A DNA stretch of 55,982 nt from Desulfuromonas sp. (lineage in GTDB: Bacteria; Desulfobacterota; Desulfuromonadia; Desulfuromonadales; Geopsychrobacteraceae): NCBI GenBank assembly GCA_002868865.1, contig PKUC01000080.1, forward strand, positions 1 through 55,982, written 5' to 3'. The notes under the pieces are model-generated. The model saw nothing but the letters and a program-made list of their open reading frames with translations, made no database searches and was not told where the DNA came from. Positions 4,628 to 12,863 of this stretch are shown in pieces (the stretch's first letter is position 1; every line of letters starts with the position of its first letter). The translations under genes and the position numbers were made by a program.

Positions 4628-5068
4628 TCAAGCCTTGTCGATATCCACCAACTGCAGGGCAAAGGTCAGATCACACCCGGCCAGGTCGTGATTGCCATCG
4701 AGCAAAACGGTCTGCTCGTCCACCGACCTGATGCGCATAGTCCGCTGCTCGTTGCCTCCCAGTTCGATGTCCAGTTTCTGGCCGATCCGCAGCTCCCGAT
4801 CCGCGGGGAACATCTCGCGGGGCACCTTCAGTAAATTCGCCTCGAGCCGCTCGCCATAGGCCTGCTCTTTGCTCAGAACAATATTCTTCACCGCACCGAC
4901 AGTCATGCCGATGATCTCCTCTTCCAGTGCGGAAAAAACCTCCTGCTGGCCGAGGGTAAAGGTCAGCGGCTGATCGCCGTCGCGCTGATCGAAGATACGG
5001 CCGTTATCCAGGGTGCCGATATAATAGACGGTGACTCGGTCACCGCTTGCGGCCTGCTGCATAGTCAA
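4628..5068 (-). CDS. slyD: SlyD-like FKBP-type peptidyl-prolyl cis-trans isomerase
   Basis: The 146-residue cytoplasmic FKBP catalyses proline isomerisation and acts as a chaperone. The FKBP core is visible at the N-terminus (VTVYYIGTLDNGRIFDQ) and C-terminus (LDGNHDLAGCDLTFALQL), with the chaperone insert-in-flap between them (AYGERLEANLLKVPREMF), which is the SlyD arrangement. The histidine-rich metal-binding tail of E. coli SlyD is missing, so a nickel role in hydrogenase maturation cannot be assumed. The ATG overlaps the stop of the macrodomain gene by four bases (5065-5068), indicating translational coupling and making it the distal gene of the dra operon. Confidence 0.85.
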   Translation of the reverse strand: MTMQQAASGDRVTVYYIGTLDNGRIFDQRDGDQPLTFTLGQQEVFSALEEEIIGMTVGAVKNIVLSKEQAYGERLEANLLKVPREMFPADRELRIGQKLDIELGGNEQRTMRIRSVDEQTVLLDGNHDLAGCDLTFALQLVDIDKA

Positions 5069-5502
5069 TTCTCCTCACTGGTAATGACCAAAAACCGGTC
5101 ATCAAAATACCGCGCCAACATCCGGTGTACATCCGGCCATTCCAGGCCGCCACCACCGCACCCGGGTCTCGGCACGACGACCGTCGACCAACCCTTGTAA
5201 TCGGTCAGTTCGACCAGTTCGCGACAGGATTGTTCAATCAAAGCGAACTGCGGTACCTCCAGAGGGCTGTTTTCTACCGGAAAGCTGACAATCCGGTGAC
5301 CGAGATCAAACACATGGTTGCCGTGCATCTGAATCTGCTGTCCCAGATGCCAGGCCAGCTGTGGAAAGCGATCCCTCGCCTGCCGAGCGCATCCACGCGG
5401 CATGTCGCAGGCTCCGTCCCGACTTACACTGCCTCCGGTGGTAATGGCGATGACCTCGCCCCGTTGATGATAGCTCCACAGATCTCCGACCACGTTCTGC
5501 AT
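5065..5502 (-). CDS. Macrodomain (ADP-ribose-binding) protein in the dra operon
   Basis: This 145-residue protein resembles stand-alone macrodomains of the ALC1/TARG1-like type. The N-terminus MQNVVGDLW and the strand VIAITTGGSVSRDGACDMPRGCARQ fit the macrodomain pattern of a short strand, a ligand-binding loop with a conserved acidic/Gly pair and a helix; the C-terminal loop VVVPRPGCGGGGLEW fits the phosphate-binding glycine loop of the family (P-x-x-G-C-G-x-G-G-L-x-W). Macrodomains bind ADP-ribose and some hydrolyse ADP-ribosyl-protein or O-acetyl-ADP-ribose bonds. The ATG at 5502 is four bases after the stop of the upstream small gene. Its place between draG and slyD suggests a role in ADP-ribose metabolism linked to nitrogenase control; that role is inferred. 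Confidence 0.75.
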   Translation of the reverse strand: MQNVVGDLWSYHQRGEVIAITTGGSVSRDGACDMPRGCARQARDRFPQLAWHLGQQIQMHGNHVFDLGHRIVSFPVENSPLEVPQFALIEQSCRELVELTDYKGWSTVVVPRPGCGGGGLEWPDVHRMLARYFDDRFLVITSEEN

Positions 5503-5506
5503 AGCT

Positions 5507-5806
5507 CTATCCCTGCGCAAGAATATCCGACATCACCGCAACCAGATAATCGAACACCTCTTCGCGGCTGACGATAAAACCGGGCATTTCATTGATCAGC
5601 ACTTCTTCGAGACGGTTAAGAACATCACCATCGACGCTGTCCAGCGTATCCATCACCGCGTCGAGCATCGGAATCACTTCGTACTGATCCTCGCGATCGA
5701 AGGGGTGCGGATCGGGCTTGCCGCTGAACTTCGGCTGCTGGCGGGTTTCTTTGATCCGCGGATACTTGTAATAGAGGTCCGAAGGTTTGATTGAAAGTGC
5801 CATCAT
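5507..5806 (-). CDS. Small acidic protein of unknown function in the dra operon (draB position)
   Basis: I do not recognise a family for this 99-residue protein (98 if the second of two adjacent ATGs is used). It begins with a basic, proline-containing segment (SIKPSDLYYKYPRIKETRQ) and continues as an acidic, probably helical domain (VIPMLDAVMDTLDSV, then LNRLEEVLINEMPGF). There is no signal peptide or membrane helix. The start lies one base after the draG stop codon (TGA at 5810-5808), so the two genes are translationally coupled. Rhodospirillum rubrum has a third gene, draB, after draT and draG; the position matches, but I cannot claim homology from the sequence alone. Confidence 0.8.
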   Translation of the reverse strand: MMALSIKPSDLYYKYPRIKETRQQPKFSGKPDPHPFDREDQYEVIPMLDAVMDTLDSVDGDVLNRLEEVLINEMPGFIVSREEVFDYLVAVMSDILAQG

Positions 5807-5807
5807 C

Positions 5808-6968
5808 TCACCGACAGCTTGTCTTGCAGGAGCAGGATTTTGCCGCGCACACCGGGCGGCCGATACCGTCACTTTCTGCCTGATAACGCTCCAGACTGTC
5901 CGACAGCACAAACCAGGCGCCGTCACACTCCTGTCCCTTCAAGATTCCTCGCTTGATGTGCATCAAAACATTGAGGGGCGTGGTGTTAAGCTGCTGGGCA
6001 ACGGCTGCGGCCGGGATCAATTCAATACTGGGTTTCATCTCATCTCCTTGCTTTTGGGTCTGCGCGGCAACGGGCTTCTGCTGTGACCAGCCAGATAGCC
6101 GCACCAGCCGCGGTGACAGATATTCGATCTCTTTTTTGATGTGTTTATCCAGTTTGCGCACCCACTGTCGCGGAAACTGCTCAGGGCCGTAAAACGCCCC
6201 AGCGATCATCCCGGCAATGGCGCCGGTGGTATCGGCATCCCCCCCCTGATTAACGACACCCACCAGACAGTCTTCGAAACTATCGGTGGTAAACAGGTAA
6301 TGAAAAACGGTCTGCATGGTCTCGACGACATACCCGGAGGCTTTTCCCCGGTAATCGTTGAACTGAAAATTGGGATAGCGCGCCACCAGTCGCGCCGCCT
6401 GCTGGCGCAGTTCATCCTTATCGGCCCCCGTAATCGCCGCCTGCGTCATCCGTCCGACGCAGAGACAGGCGGCATCGGACAGCGGATGATGATGAGTGAG
6501 CCGCGCCTGCTGCAGCGCGCAGCGTTTCAGTTCGCGATCATCACCCAGAGTCAGCAGCGCCACCGGAGCCATCCGCATCACCGCGCCGTTGCCGGCGTCC
6601 CAATCGTTTTGCGGCATCTCCAGCAGACCCTTGTTCATATAGGTCCTGATCCCTTTGCGCACCGTGGAACCGATATCGATCGGCTTGTTCTTCATCCAGG
6701 CGACAAAACTGTCGGCAATCAGCTTCAGCTCCCATCGTCCACGCAACAGCACCACCCGGGCAATCGCCAGCGACATCTCGGTATCATCGGTAACCTGTCC
6801 CGGCTTGATCCCCAGCCAGCCGCCGCCGCGGATCTTGTTGTGCACCTTGTAGGTCGCCTGAATCTCCCGCGGAGACATAAACTCCGTAGTCGCCCCCAGC
6901 GCGTCACCCAGCGCCAAACCGAGAAACGCACCGTAAGCCCGCATCTGCAGCTGCTCTATATCACTCAT
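5808..6968 (-). CDS. draG: Dinitrogenase reductase-activating ADP-ribosylglycohydrolase DraG with C-terminal HTH/Cys-rich extension
   Basis: The first ~300 of 386 residues are an ADP-ribosylglycohydrolase that removes ADP-ribose from the modified arginine of NifH and so reactivates nitrogenase. Visible motifs are LGDALGATTEF, the metal-binding TDDTE near residue 60, the conserved GNGAVMRM, and NQGGDADTTGAIAG, the second metal-binding segment (GGDxDT). Family members are usually about 300 residues. The extra C-terminus (311-386) looks like an excisionase/MerR-type helix-turn-helix (AAAVAQQLNTTPLNVLMHIK, ending in a short wing) followed by a tail with four cysteines (C-x4-C-x-C-x3-C). An internal ATG at 6038 has a strong Shine-Dalgarno. 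The start at 6968 fits the family N-terminus; draT ends 42 bases upstream. Confidence 0.92.
   Translation of the reverse strand: MSDIEQLQMRAYGAFLGLALGDALGATTEFMSPREIQATYKVHNKIRGGGWLGIKPGQVTDDTEMSLAIARVVLLRGRWELKLIADSFVAWMKNKPIDIGSTVRKGIRTYMNKGLLEMPQNDWDAGNGAVMRMAPVALLTLGDDRELKRCALQQARLTHHHPLSDAACLCVGRMTQAAITGADKDELRQQAARLVARYPNFQFNDYRGKASGYVVETMQTVFHYLFTTDSFEDCLVGVVNQGGDADTTGAIAGMIAGAFYGPEQFPRQWVRKLDKHIKKEIEYLSPRLVRLSGWSQQKPVAAQTQKQGDEMKPSIELIPAAAVAQQLNTTPLNVLMHIKRGILKGQECDGAWFVLSDSLERYQAESDGIGRPVCAAKSCSCKTSCR
6036..6050 (-). promoter_or_regulatory. Internal Shine-Dalgarno and in-frame ATG inside draG
   Basis: Read on the minus strand, AAGGAGATGAG stands directly before an in-frame ATG at 6038-6036; GGAG is five bases from the ATG. 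This is at least as good as any gene-start ribosome site nearby and falls exactly at the junction between the DraG domain and the C-terminal helix-turn-helix. Initiation here would give a separate 76-residue HTH/cysteine-rich protein (6038-5808) in the same frame. Confidence 0.6.
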
Positions 6969-7010
6969 AAATCGGCCACCGCTGAATCCGGTCTGTCCAA
7001 AACACCCGCA

Positions 7011-7805
7011 TCATCCCCCCGTCAAAACCTTGATCTCAAATTCGCCGCCGATCACCATCACCTCGGCCTCACCTTTAAACAGCGACTTCGGTAGAACCCC
7101 GCCCATAAAAAAGATCTTGGTCAGCGGAACCGACGCCTGCAGGACACGGCTGCCGAACTCCCAGGCCCGTTCAAAATCATCAGTAAAGGAATTGAGGTTG
7201 TTCAGGCGCATGATGTAATGATTCTTGCCCTGCTGCTCGATCACCTGATGCTCTTCCAGATCGTAAACCCCGCGGTAGAGGGTCAGATGTGTGCCGCCGC
7301 AATAGCGGATCGCCGCCTCGTACTGCACATATTCGTAGAGCAGATCCAGCTGCGGCAGGATGGCGCTGGTCCGTTCAGAACCCTTCATCCGGTCGACGGT
7401 ATAGCGAAAATATGCCGGTGAATGGATGTCGGTAATCTGTTCACGATGAAAAATGGGCGCGATCCCGATCCGCGATTCGACCCAGCCTTTGAGCACCGCA
7501 CCTTCGATCGAGTTGCTGTCGAACTGCCAACCGCGTAAAAAGCGCAGATAGCTGTTTTTGAGGCTGGTCCGGCTATTCTTGGTCTGCTCACGCTGCCACT
7601 GGTGCAACTGATAGCGCACATCCATAAAATCGTGAAACTGCAGCCCGCGCGCGTCCGCATCCTGCAACCTGTCCAGTCTTTCAAACAGGGGCTGCCCATT
7701 GTGCCGCACCCCCTGGATATTCAGGGGCTGCGGGTGCCGGTTATAGTGGCGCGAAGCAATCGCCCAGGGGGGAAGACTGCATCTGTTCAACTGAGTCGTG
7801 TACAT
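7011..7805 (-). CDS. draT: NAD(+)-dinitrogenase-reductase ADP-ribosyltransferase DraT
   Basis: The 264-residue enzyme transfers ADP-ribose from NAD+ to an arginine of the nitrogenase iron protein, switching nitrogenase off when ammonium is present or energy is short. The N-terminus LNRCSLPPWAIASRHYN and the following LFERLDRLQDADARGLQFHD are typical of DraT. The arginine-ADP-ribosyltransferase R-S-E signature can be read as R in LYRGVY, S in LNSFTDDFE and the E-x-E in FKGEAEVMVIGG. Length matches the family (about 260-290). It is the first gene of the minus-strand operon draT-draG-orf-macrodomain-slyD, and its target nifH is not in this window. Confidence 0.93.
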   Translation of the reverse strand: MYTTQLNRCSLPPWAIASRHYNRHPQPLNIQGVRHNGQPLFERLDRLQDADARGLQFHDFMDVRYQLHQWQREQTKNSRTSLKNSYLRFLRGWQFDSNSIEGAVLKGWVESRIGIAPIFHREQITDIHSPAYFRYTVDRMKGSERTSAILPQLDLLYEYVQYEAAIRYCGGTHLTLYRGVYDLEEHQVIEQQGKNHYIMRLNNLNSFTDDFERAWEFGSRVLQASVPLTKIFFMGGVLPKSLFKGEAEVMVIGGEFEIKVLTGG

Positions 7806-7876: not shown

Positions 7877-8056
7877 TTATTTAGGCATTTTGGGCCGGCG
7901 ACGGTGACGGCGGGGGTGAGGCAGGACAATCTGCGCTTGATAAAAACCGTGATAGTGCAGCTGTTTCCGGTAAAAAAGATCACACCGGACTGCCTGGGCC
8001 TTTAACACGGGGAGTTGGGATTGCAGCAACGGTGCCAACAGCACGCCATAGAGCAA
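7877..8056 (-). CDS. Possible small membrane or exported protein without a convincing start
   Basis: The 287-base gap between draT and hxlR holds a minus-strand frame in phase with hxlR that continues after its stop. It encodes a hydrophobic stretch (SLLAAVLLYGVLLAPLLQS), then a polar region with one Cys and several aromatic/His residues, and a very basic tail (HPRRHRRRPKMPK) ending at TAA 7879-7877. No ATG or GTG lies before the hydrophobic segment; the only usable codon, TTG at 8056, would cut into it and lacks a Shine-Dalgarno. It may be a decayed gene, an extension exposed by a new stop, or chance. I recognise no family. Confidence 0.25.
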   Translation of the reverse strand: MLYGVLLAPLLQSQLPVLKAQAVRCDLFYRKQLHYHGFYQAQIVLPHPRRHRRRPKMPK

Positions 8057-8092
8057 GACAGCTGCCAGCAGGGAAAGACCGGGGAGAATCGG

Positions 8093-8437
8093 CTACACGA
8101 CCTTGACCTCATCAACCATCTGTTTTTTCTGATAAACTTTTCCCCAGGCACACATCTGTTCCAGAATCGGAATCACCGTCTGTCCCAGTTCGGTCAGGGA
8201 ATATTCCACCCGCGGCGGCACTTCGGCATAGACCTGACGGTGTACCAGGCCGTCCTGCTCCAGCTCGCGCAGCTGCTGGGTTTGCATCTTCTGGGTGATG
8301 GTTCCGAGGCGACGCTGCAGTTGACTGAAGCGCAGCGTCTTGACCCGCAGATGCCAGAGGATGAGAGATTTCCACTTGCCGCCAATCACCTCCAGGGTTA
8401 TGGCGACGGTACATGTGTAAGGCTGCTGTTCACTCAT
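8093..8437 (-). CDS. HxlR-family winged-helix transcriptional regulator
   Basis: The 114-residue protein has the HxlR signature: an N-terminal Cys (C9), the core TLEVIGGKWKSLILWHL, the recognition region LRFSQLQRRLGTITQKMQTQQLRELEQDGLV and the wing VPPRVEYSLTELGQTVIPILEQM. Relatives such as YodB and HypR sense electrophiles or quinones through that conserved cysteine and control adjacent reductases. The ATG at 8437 has GGAGAGG upstream. It is divergent from the AcuI-type reductase across a 141-base region that contains a candidate operator, so it probably regulates that gene and itself. Confidence 0.92.
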   Translation of the reverse strand: MSEQQPYTCTVAITLEVIGGKWKSLILWHLRVKTLRFSQLQRRLGTITQKMQTQQLRELEQDGLVHRQVYAEVPPRVEYSLTELGQTVIPILEQMCAWGKVYQKKQMVDEVKVV

Positions 8438-10494: not shown

Positions 10495-11595
10495 GTGACC
10501 ACCGCAAACCAAACTCAGCCCCTATCCGACTGGAAAACCCAGCTGCAAAACTTTGTCAACAGCATTGAGCGCCTGGAACAGTACGTGACCCTGACCGATG
10601 AGGAGCGGGCCGTACTCGCCGCCAACACAACCACCTGGGGGACAACGCCTTACTTTGCGTCCATGATGGATGCCGACGACCCCAACTGCCCGATCCGCAA
10701 ACAGGTCATCCCCTCCCGGCTCGAAAAGCTGAACACCTACGGGATGACGGACTATCTGCTCTGGAAAGAAAATCGCGCCACCGAAGAAGTCAGGCCAGAC
10801 AGTATCGCCCGGCAATACCGGGATCGAATCGCCTTTACGGTCACCCAAACCTGCGGAATCTACTGCCGACACTGCTTCCGCAAAGAATTGGTCGTCGACG
10901 GCGCCCTTTCCCTCGACTTCAATGTCGATGAAGGGCTGAAATGGCTGGCCGAACACCCCGAAGTCCGCGACGTTTTAATCACCGGCGGCGATCCGTTTTT
11001 GCTGGCGGACGAACAACTGGACTACCTGATCCGCAAACTGCGCGAACTTTCACACGTTGAAATGATCCGCTTCGGAACCCGCACGCCGATTGTGCTGCCG
11101 CAACGCATCGACAGCGGGCTGAAGAAGGTCCTCGGCGGCTACCACAAAGTACCGATCTGGATCAACACCCAGTGTAACCATCCCAGCGAAATCACCGAAA
11201 AGACTGCAAAGGCCGTATTCGATCTGCTCAGCTGCGGAGTCAACGTCGGCAATCAAGCAGTGCTGCTCAAGGGCATTAACGACAATGTTCCGACCTTTCG
11301 CACCCTACATCAAAAGCTGATTTCGGTCCGCATCAAGCCCTACTACGTCTTTTATTGCGAAGCCGCTCCCGGCATTGACCACTTCCGAACCCCGGTCGAA
11401 AAAGGCGCCGAACTGATCCGAGATGCCCTGCGGGGTCACACCACCGGCCTCGCCCAGCCGATGCACGTCGTTGCTACCAACATCGGCAAAATTCCGCTGA
11501 TGCCCGATTACTACATCGTCGACAAGGACGAAAACAACTATCGACTGCGCAACCACAAGGGACAGCTGACAACGATTCCAAACGTCCCCGGTTGA
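10495..11595 (+). CDS. KamA-family radical SAM aminomutase (lysine/glutamate 2,3-aminomutase-like), first copy
   Basis: The 366-residue enzyme has the radical SAM cluster motif CGIYCRHC (Cx3Cx2C), the SAM-binding GGDPF, and the PLP-binding lysine in a xxIGK motif near the C-terminus, matching lysine 2,3-aminomutase, which moves an amino group from C2 to C3. The arginine after the third cysteine (CFRK), which holds the substrate carboxylate in the family, is kept. The two aspartates that hold lysine's epsilon-amino group in the clostridial enzyme appear replaced (CEAAPG where VCDLS is expected; Ala in the VVATNIGK segment), so the substrate may not be lysine. The GTG start at 10495 has GAGGA upstream. 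A MarR gene precedes it. Confidence 0.85.
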   Translation: MTTANQTQPLSDWKTQLQNFVNSIERLEQYVTLTDEERAVLAANTTTWGTTPYFASMMDADDPNCPIRKQVIPSRLEKLNTYGMTDYLLWKENRATEEVRPDSIARQYRDRIAFTVTQTCGIYCRHCFRKELVVDGALSLDFNVDEGLKWLAEHPEVRDVLITGGDPFLLADEQLDYLIRKLRELSHVEMIRFGTRTPIVLPQRIDSGLKKVLGGYHKVPIWINTQCNHPSEITEKTAKAVFDLLSCGVNVGNQAVLLKGINDNVPTFRTLHQKLISVRIKPYYVFYCEAAPGIDHFRTPVEKGAELIRDALRGHTTGLAQPMHVVATNIGKIPLMPDYYIVDKDENNYRLRNHKGQLTTIPNVPG

Positions 11596-11684: not shown

Positions 11685-12863
11685 ATGAATACAATCACCC
11701 CCATTCGATCTAGACAAGACAGTAACTGGATAAATAACGACTGGCAGCAAGAGCTGAAAAACAACATTACCAACATCGATCAGCTCAAAGAGGTGATCGA
11801 TCTGGCTCCAGACGAGGAAAACCAGCTGCGCAAGGTCGTCCGCGCCCACCCGATGAATATTCCGCGCTACTATCTCAACCTGGTCGATCGCGACGACCCG
11901 CACGACCCGATCCGCAAGCTGTGCGTTCCGCAAAGAGACGAGCTGATTCGGGCTGGATCGATGGGAGAGACCACAAAAGACCCCTACGGCGACGACAAGC
12001 ACAACAAGGGCAACGGGGTGCTGCATAAATATTCCTACACCGCCCTGATTGTCGCCACCGAGTATTGCGCCATGTACTGTCGGCACTGTTTTCGGAAACG
12101 GATGGTAGGGCTATCAACCGACCAGACGGTCGAAAACTTCCAGAATGCCGCACAATATGTTGCCGACAACCCGCAGATCAGCAACGTGGTCATCTCCGGT
12201 GGCGATCCTTTTCTGCTACCGACCAAAAGCCTCAAAGAGATGCTCGACACGCTGAAAGAGATTCCGCATCTCAATTACGTACGCATCGGCTCCCGTGCGC
12301 CGGTGGTCTACCCCACCCGGTTTTTCGACAACGAACTGATCGAAATGCTCCGTGAGTTTGGTCAACAAAAAGCTCTCTTTGTTCCGACCCACTTCAATCA
12401 CCCCAATGAGCTGACTGCCACAGCCGGTGAGGCCGCCCTGCGCCTCTGTCGGGCCGGCGTCACCCTCAATAACCAGGCGGTTCTGCTGCGCGGGGTCAAC
12501 GACCAGACGGAAACCCTGGTCGAACTGATGAACGGACTGCTGAAAATCGGCGTCAGCCCCTACTATCTCTACCAGTGCATGCCGGTCGAACGTGTCCGGC
12601 ACCACTTTCAGGTTCCTTTAAAAGACGGGGTTAAAATCGTCGACGACGCCCGCCGAAAACTTGACGGCTACGCCAAACGCTTCAAGTTCATCATGGGTCA
12701 CGACATCGGCAAGCTCGAAATCTGCGGGCAGATCGACAACAAGTTGATCCTCAAGCAACTCCACGCACGCCCCGGTCACGAACAGGAATCATCACGAATG
12801 CTGATTCACCAACTCAAAGACGGTGCCGGCTGGCTCGACGATCTGCCGGAGGTTGAGTTGTAA
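11685..12863 (+). CDS. KamA-family radical SAM aminomutase-like protein, second copy
   Basis: The 392-residue protein is a diverged paralogue of the preceding gene. It keeps CAMYCRHCFRK (Cx3Cx2C cluster and carboxylate-binding Arg), SGGDPF, and the FIMGHDIGK segment bearing the presumed PLP lysine. At the lysine epsilon-amino sites it differs from both classical lysine 2,3-aminomutase and the first copy (YQCMPV; GHDIGK). The C-terminal ~40 residues (KQLHARPGHEQESSRMLIHQ and beyond) replace the family's usual end. It may be a glutamate- or other amino-acid 2,3-aminomutase; beta-amino acids serve as osmolytes in some anaerobes. No beta-lysine acetyltransferase gene is nearby. No clear Shine-Dalgarno precedes the ATG at 11685. 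Confidence 0.8.
   Translation: MNTITPIRSRQDSNWINNDWQQELKNNITNIDQLKEVIDLAPDEENQLRKVVRAHPMNIPRYYLNLVDRDDPHDPIRKLCVPQRDELIRAGSMGETTKDPYGDDKHNKGNGVLHKYSYTALIVATEYCAMYCRHCFRKRMVGLSTDQTVENFQNAAQYVADNPQISNVVISGGDPFLLPTKSLKEMLDTLKEIPHLNYVRIGSRAPVVYPTRFFDNELIEMLREFGQQKALFVPTHFNHPNELTATAGEAALRLCRAGVTLNNQAVLLRGVNDQTETLVELMNGLLKIGVSPYYLYQCMPVERVRHHFQVPLKDGVKIVDDARRKLDGYAKRFKFIMGHDIGKLEICGQIDNKLILKQLHARPGHEQESSRMLIHQLKDGAGWLDDLPEVEL

Follow-up and report, generated by a model that had tools for sequence, protein, structure and literature searches.

A conserved macrodomain protein in the draT/draG operon of Desulfuromonadales, a candidate third component of nitrogenase ADP-ribosylation control

The Fe protein of nitrogenase, NifH, is ADP-ribosylated by DraT, and the group is taken off by DraG. 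In Rhodospirillum rubrum and Azospirillum brasilense, both enzymes are co-encoded with an accessory gene downstream (draTG or draTGB). The accessory protein DraB is NifO/ArsC-like and has a thioredoxin-type fold (PMC5249018). Outside nitrogen fixation, macrodomain proteins such as TARG1 (OARD1) and DarG handle ADP-ribose. TARG1 catalysis involves Lys84 and an acidic residue at position 125, of which DarG retains only the lysine (PMC7050489). DarG, like the macrodomain considered below, goes together with an ADP-ribosyltransferase. Here, we describe a locus of Desulfuromonas sp. (contig PKUC01000080.1) in which draT and draG are followed by genes for a small helical protein (X99), a macrodomain protein and an FKBP-type peptidyl-prolyl isomerase. 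All coordinates are positions in the stretch of 55,982 nucleotides that was analysed, hereafter the window. DraT, DraG and macrodomains are already known; the novelty lies in their combination and in X99, a conserved component of unknown function. We propose, as an evenly balanced judgement, that the operon is an extended DraT/DraG nitrogenase switch of diazotrophic Desulfuromonadales and their class, in which the macrodomain would be an ADP-ribose binder working with DraG. In the open-access literature, we found no paper that connects dra or nif genes with a macrodomain.

The elements of the operon, given below in the order of transcription, all lie on the minus strand.

7011..7805, minus strand: draT, dinitrogenase reductase ADP-ribosyltransferase, 264 residues (Pfam PF07357 DRAT, E 4.7e-105 over positions 2-256 of 256).
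5808..6968, minus strand: draG open reading frame, 386 residues; ADP-ribosyl-[dinitrogenase reductase] hydrolase (TIGR02662) takes up residues 1-292, the remainder being a fused helix-turn-helix (HTH)/Cys-rich protein.
5808..6038, minus strand: draGc, the HTH_17-like small protein with a conserved Cys tail, about 75 residues, with an internal ATG at 6038 behind AAGGAG.
5507..5803, minus strand: X99, helical protein of 98 residues, function unknown (36-member alignment).
5065..5502, minus strand: macrodomain with an ALC1/TARG1/DarG-like fold, 145 residues; Glu77 (codon 5274-5272) at the catalytic-Lys position.
4628..5068, minus strand: FKBP/SlyD-type peptidyl-prolyl isomerase, starting at TTG 5068 or ATG 5062 (PF00254 FKBP_C, E 6.5e-16).

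The five genes named in the original prediction (draT, draG, a small unknown protein, a macrodomain and a prolyl isomerase) are thus all present in the order draT-draG-X99-macrodomain-FKBP. The draT product reaches 350.8 bits against the DRAT family (cut-off 25), and residues 8-292 of the draG product reach 429.7 bits against the NCBIfam equivalog TIGR02662 (cut-off 337). The FKBP_C domain scores 58.9 bits (cut-off 21.1), and the FKBP protein reaches no NCBIfam equivalog cut-off. The small protein, announced as having 99 residues, has 98 (99 codons counting the stop). Spacing of one to four bases or overlaps had also been described. This holds from draG onwards, with four bases between draG and X99, four between X99 and the macrodomain gene and two before the FKBP ATG, the alternative TTG giving an overlap with the macrodomain stop; draT and draG, however, are 42 bases apart. 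A sixth element, draGc, and the wider nif-cluster context had been missed.

Profile searches showed that the C-terminal part of the 386-residue draG frame is not DraG and that nearly all relatives encode it as a gene of its own. This draGc profile matches in 45 draT loci. HTH_17 (PF12728) is matched by 17 of 36 members, and the tail has four Cys positions, of which one is invariant and the others reach at least 90% conservation. draGc, a putative DNA-binding protein, is probably a regulator. In the nearest relative, of the same genus (locus L074), DNA alignment shows that draG closes with a TAG just ahead of the draGc ATG. The window lacks this stop, so that draG and draGc share one frame, while the purine-rich AAGGAG and ATG 6038 are retained. 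The product may therefore be a draG-draGc fusion, a separate draGc or both; alternatively, the missing stop may be an assembly error.

A conserved neighbourhood, one of the checks proposed for the original prediction, was found across the order. Among 136 genomes of Desulfuromonadales searched with Pfam DRAT, 81 were positive, and 81 related draT loci were scanned with profiles made from the window proteins. Counting was limited to the 66 loci whose sequence continues for at least 4 kb on the downstream side of draT. There, draG follows in 63, draGc in 41, X99 in 41, FKBP in 34 and the macrodomain in 24, and 24 loci hold all five. The conserved order is draT-draG-draGc-X99-macrodomain-FKBP, and the last three genes are typically separated by a few bases or overlap. 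Since this neighbourhood recurs across the order, the arrangement is not due to chance. At several loci (L051, L067, L069-L071, L075 and L081, from one family plus one other), an insert of about 4.6 kb lies between draT and draG; L123 hints at a histidine kinase within this insert.

Independently, named genomes were searched with the macrodomain alignment and with retrieval patterns that included FPVE; this gave 80 loci, nearly all from Desulfuromonadales/Geobacteraceae. In these loci, draGc, X99 and the macrodomain gene often move as a unit. In Desulfuromusa and others, the trio accompanies draT/draG upstream of nifHDK. In Geobacteraceae, it stands directly after nifV and near nifB, with draG on the opposite strand (nif gene identities were checked with NCBIfam). 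X99 is seldom met beyond the class; as to the macrodomain, two further genomes of the phylum carry strong members. The nif-type macrodomain was also seen in two metagenome-assembled genomes (MAGs) labelled Gammaproteobacteria (Madre5 and Madre6, loci L139 and L157), one copy being near nifV and nifK, which could reflect transfer or misbinning.

Gene fusions add to this picture. draG and the macrodomain form a single open reading frame at three loci, in Malonomonas rubra DSM 5091 (L102/L148), in a MAG of Desulfuromusa sp. (L073/L133) and in one further MAG (L037/L142); at L053, the macrodomain gene immediately follows draG. A second kind of fusion joins draGc to X99 in L066 (5603-6238 of that locus, 212 residues, genome G072), where the FKBP gene has been relocated between draG and draGc. 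The draG-draGc frame of the window is the third kind. These data bear on the simplest alternative, that the genes are mere neighbours in a nitrogen-fixation region with no functional tie. Lineages do differ in gene content and often lack the macrodomain, as hitchhiking would allow. However, an order kept over many families, close spacing or overlaps, three kinds of fusion and a trio relocated as a unit make hitchhiking very improbable.

The distribution of X99 closely follows that of draT. Within the 136 genomes, 74 have both, three X99 only, seven draT only and 52 neither (Fisher 5e-26, a value that ignores the relatedness of the genomes). Against nifH, the corresponding numbers are 73, four, seven and 52. 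In the three genomes with X99 and no draT (G017, G063 and G084), the module lies near a contig end, which may have cut draT off. The macrodomain is found in 52 genomes, all of which have X99 and none of which lacks both nifH and draT. In the source genome, nifH is cut by a contig end (residue 177 on) and is followed by nifD (G000:C78, 1-1786, L001), which places the nif genes and the dra operon on different contigs. The region of the target arginine (Arg101) is missing from this truncated nifH; in related loci, all 74 NifH motifs found, of the ESGGPEPGVGCAGRGVI type, have the arginine.

The trio could instead serve nitrogenase assembly or nif expression, with X99 accompanying the HTH/Cys regulator and the macrodomain taking a nucleotide as its ligand. 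The position of the Geobacteraceae trio beside nifV and nifB would fit such a role, as would the HTH and four conserved Cys of draGc and the wider spread of X99 (77 genomes) compared with the macrodomain (52). On the other hand, the draG-macrodomain fusion and the shared operon with draT/draG point to ADP-ribosylation. In addition, two nifH-positive genomes without draT, G075 (99% complete) and G081 (80% complete), also lack X99. This pattern tends to favour draT over nif as the partner, although two genomes are few. Overall, we regard a role in assembly or expression as improbable, though to be kept in mind.

The macrodomain protein scores 12.8 bits with Pfam Macro (PF01661), under the gathering cut-off of 22, and a macrodomain profile search finds DarG and TARG1 (profile E about 1e-8). 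Its predicted structure is a macrodomain fold with a predicted local distance difference test score (pLDDT) of 93.7. The closest solved folds are DarG (Z 17.6-19.6, the highest for 5m31) and TARG1 (Z 16-17.2, the highest for the structure with ADP-ribose, over 132 residues), and Foldseek agrees on both as the best structural matches. Hence, the profile matches and the predicted structure bear out the identification as a macrodomain. Two motifs of the ADP-ribose fold are retained in this confident model: GD (Gly followed by Asp/Asn) close to the N-terminus, and the phosphate loop PRPGCGGGGL, which shares PRxGCG with TARG1. The loss of ligand residues named as a refutation of the original prediction is thus not seen in these motifs. 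Sequence identity to TARG1 is 20-23%.

The nearest sequence relatives outside the family are phage macro proteins of PHROG 335 (annotated 'phosphatase'), about 32-43% identical. Since DarG is the nearest solved fold and phage homologues exist, the protein might be a DarG-like antitoxin or a phage-derived macrodomain lodged in nif clusters. Several observations speak against this origin. The neighbours are the protein-modifying DraT and DraG, DarT was not found beside the macrodomain, and the long C-terminal part of DarG is missing; the full DarG model NF048014, whose cut-off is 250, gives the protein a score of 30.8. The role of a DarTG antitoxin was accordingly rejected. Furthermore, the nif-linked family separates from the phage and plasmid homologues with full support, and within the order it is confined to nif- or draT-bearing genomes. 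Of the alternatives considered, this one is the least probable.

Alignment to TARG1 and DarG places Glu77 (in FPVE) at the position of TARG1 Lys84. The catalytic Lys of the ALC1-like class is thus replaced: of the 94 family members aligned, 93 have Glu at this position. Among 25 macrodomains chosen by profile, independently of the FPVE pattern, 24 have Glu and one Ala. Asp125 of TARG1 is Gly in the nif/dra-linked family. In contrast, the six phage or plasmid homologues inspected, of about 59, all have Lys where the nif-linked family has Glu. Because the position is a near-invariant Glu, Lys-dependent hydrolysis of the TARG1/DarG type is unlikely. A comparison is provided by SCO6735 and BT1257, which are also ALC1-like and lack the TARG1 Lys/Asp pair (Gln/Ala there). 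SCO6735 still hydrolyses Glu-linked ADP-ribose (PMC5087735), so the loss of Lys does not exclude hydrolysis. Their structural similarity to the window protein is lower (5e3b, Z 13.9), and no nitrogenase link has been reported for them.

The macrodomain could therefore be an enzyme with a new chemistry, in which Glu77 replaces Lys and an ADP-ribose derivative is degraded, for instance ADP-ribosyl mislinked to NifH or DraT, or released ADP-ribose. A nearly invariant Glu together with an invariant phosphate loop resembles a working site rather than decay, and fusion to DraG would then pair two erasers. Nevertheless, the TARG1 dyad is wholly absent, no substrate is known and DraG alone is enough in the systems studied. 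On balance, we consider such an enzyme unlikely, while giving it more weight than the other alternatives.

In our preferred reading, the macrodomain would bind ADP-ribose within the DraT/DraG cycle. It could read ADP-ribosyl-Arg on modified NifH and assist DraG there, or it could take up the ADP-ribose set free by DraG. draGc would regulate, X99 would act as an adaptor and FKBP would aid folding. The genetic linkage is observed, and the biochemical steps are inferred. The original prediction of a third ADP-ribose-handling activity is strengthened in its link to the switch by the draG-macrodomain fusions and the co-occurrence with draT. Its options are no longer equal, as Lys-dependent de-ADP-ribosylation has become unlikely and reading or binding remains. 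Several observations weigh against the proposal. The draG-macrodomain fusions form one clade and thus count as a single event. In Geobacteraceae, the trio is closer to nifV than to draT, and many members of this family also have a solitary macrodomain at a distance from nif and dra. The macrodomain is absent from 25 of the 77 X99 genomes and is therefore dispensable. As draT and nifH nearly coincide in the order (75/80), a tie to draT is not cleanly separable from a tie to nif. Finally, the activity of SCO6735 shows that hydrolysis can persist when Lys is lost. A broader formulation is that the Glu-for-Lys macrodomain is a third nitrogenase-dedicated ADP-ribose component, either reading ADP-ribosyl-NifH for DraG or applying a new chemistry. 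With X99 and the HTH/Cys protein as partners, it would form a multi-protein reader-writer-eraser switch; we hold this formulation with slightly less than even confidence.

X99 is modelled as a helical protein (pLDDT 88). Nothing in the PDB matches it at E ≤ 0.001, the best E being 1.4, and it matches no Pfam or NCBIfam family. An identity with DraB/NifO was rejected in view of the predicted helical fold and of the lack of an ArsC match in Pfam; compared with draTGB, the HTH protein, the macrodomain and FKBP are also extra here. A weak match to the NifX-associated family TIGR02935 came from one of 36 members only (E 0.059) and was not trusted. Similarly, a hit of X99 to PHROG 33929 (E 3.7e-4) was discarded, as a tblastn search with X99 gave no match in phages. 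X99 is probably an adaptor. Distant homologues outside nif/dra contexts (L260-L263, in G198, G175, G413 and G512) could reveal an ancestral role. As to the FKBP protein, the usual NifH isomerase is NifM, for which no genome among the 136 passes the cut-off. Because of this absence, one may speculate that FKBP stands in for NifM and helps NifH to fold.

Other features of the window lie upstream of the operon.

8022-8037 and 8052-8067, minus strand: a pair of -24/-12-like sites of the sigma-54 type, upstream of draT, with one mismatch each.
8093-8437, minus strand: gene for a regulator of the HxlR family, next upstream of draT and co-oriented with it.
10495-11595 and 11685-12863, plus strand: tandem pair of radical-SAM proteins, similar to each other and reading like lysine 2,3-aminomutases.

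The sigma-54-like sites sit between the HxlR gene and draT. Across the window, the number of such matches agrees with chance (25, with 29 expected). Near-consensus sites (score at least 9) precede draT in 17 of 81 relatives, against 5.9% in controls, a comparison uncorrected for relatedness. In Geobacter sulfurreducens, draT (GSU2802) is part of the RpoN-regulated nifEN operon (PMC2725144). Sigma-54 control of the draT operon is thus suggestive only.

Overall, a class of diazotrophs that includes the Geobacteraceae, important in soils and sediments, keeps a macrodomain with the DraT/DraG switch, fused to the eraser in one lineage. It also keeps X99, whose tie to draT and nifH is almost as close as the one between these two. 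The Glu-for-Lys swap, clean against the phage relatives, offers a test case for how ALC1-like macrodomains shift between hydrolase and binder. If the macrodomain does read modified NifH, it would be a prokaryotic reader of a metabolic ADP-ribosylation mark.

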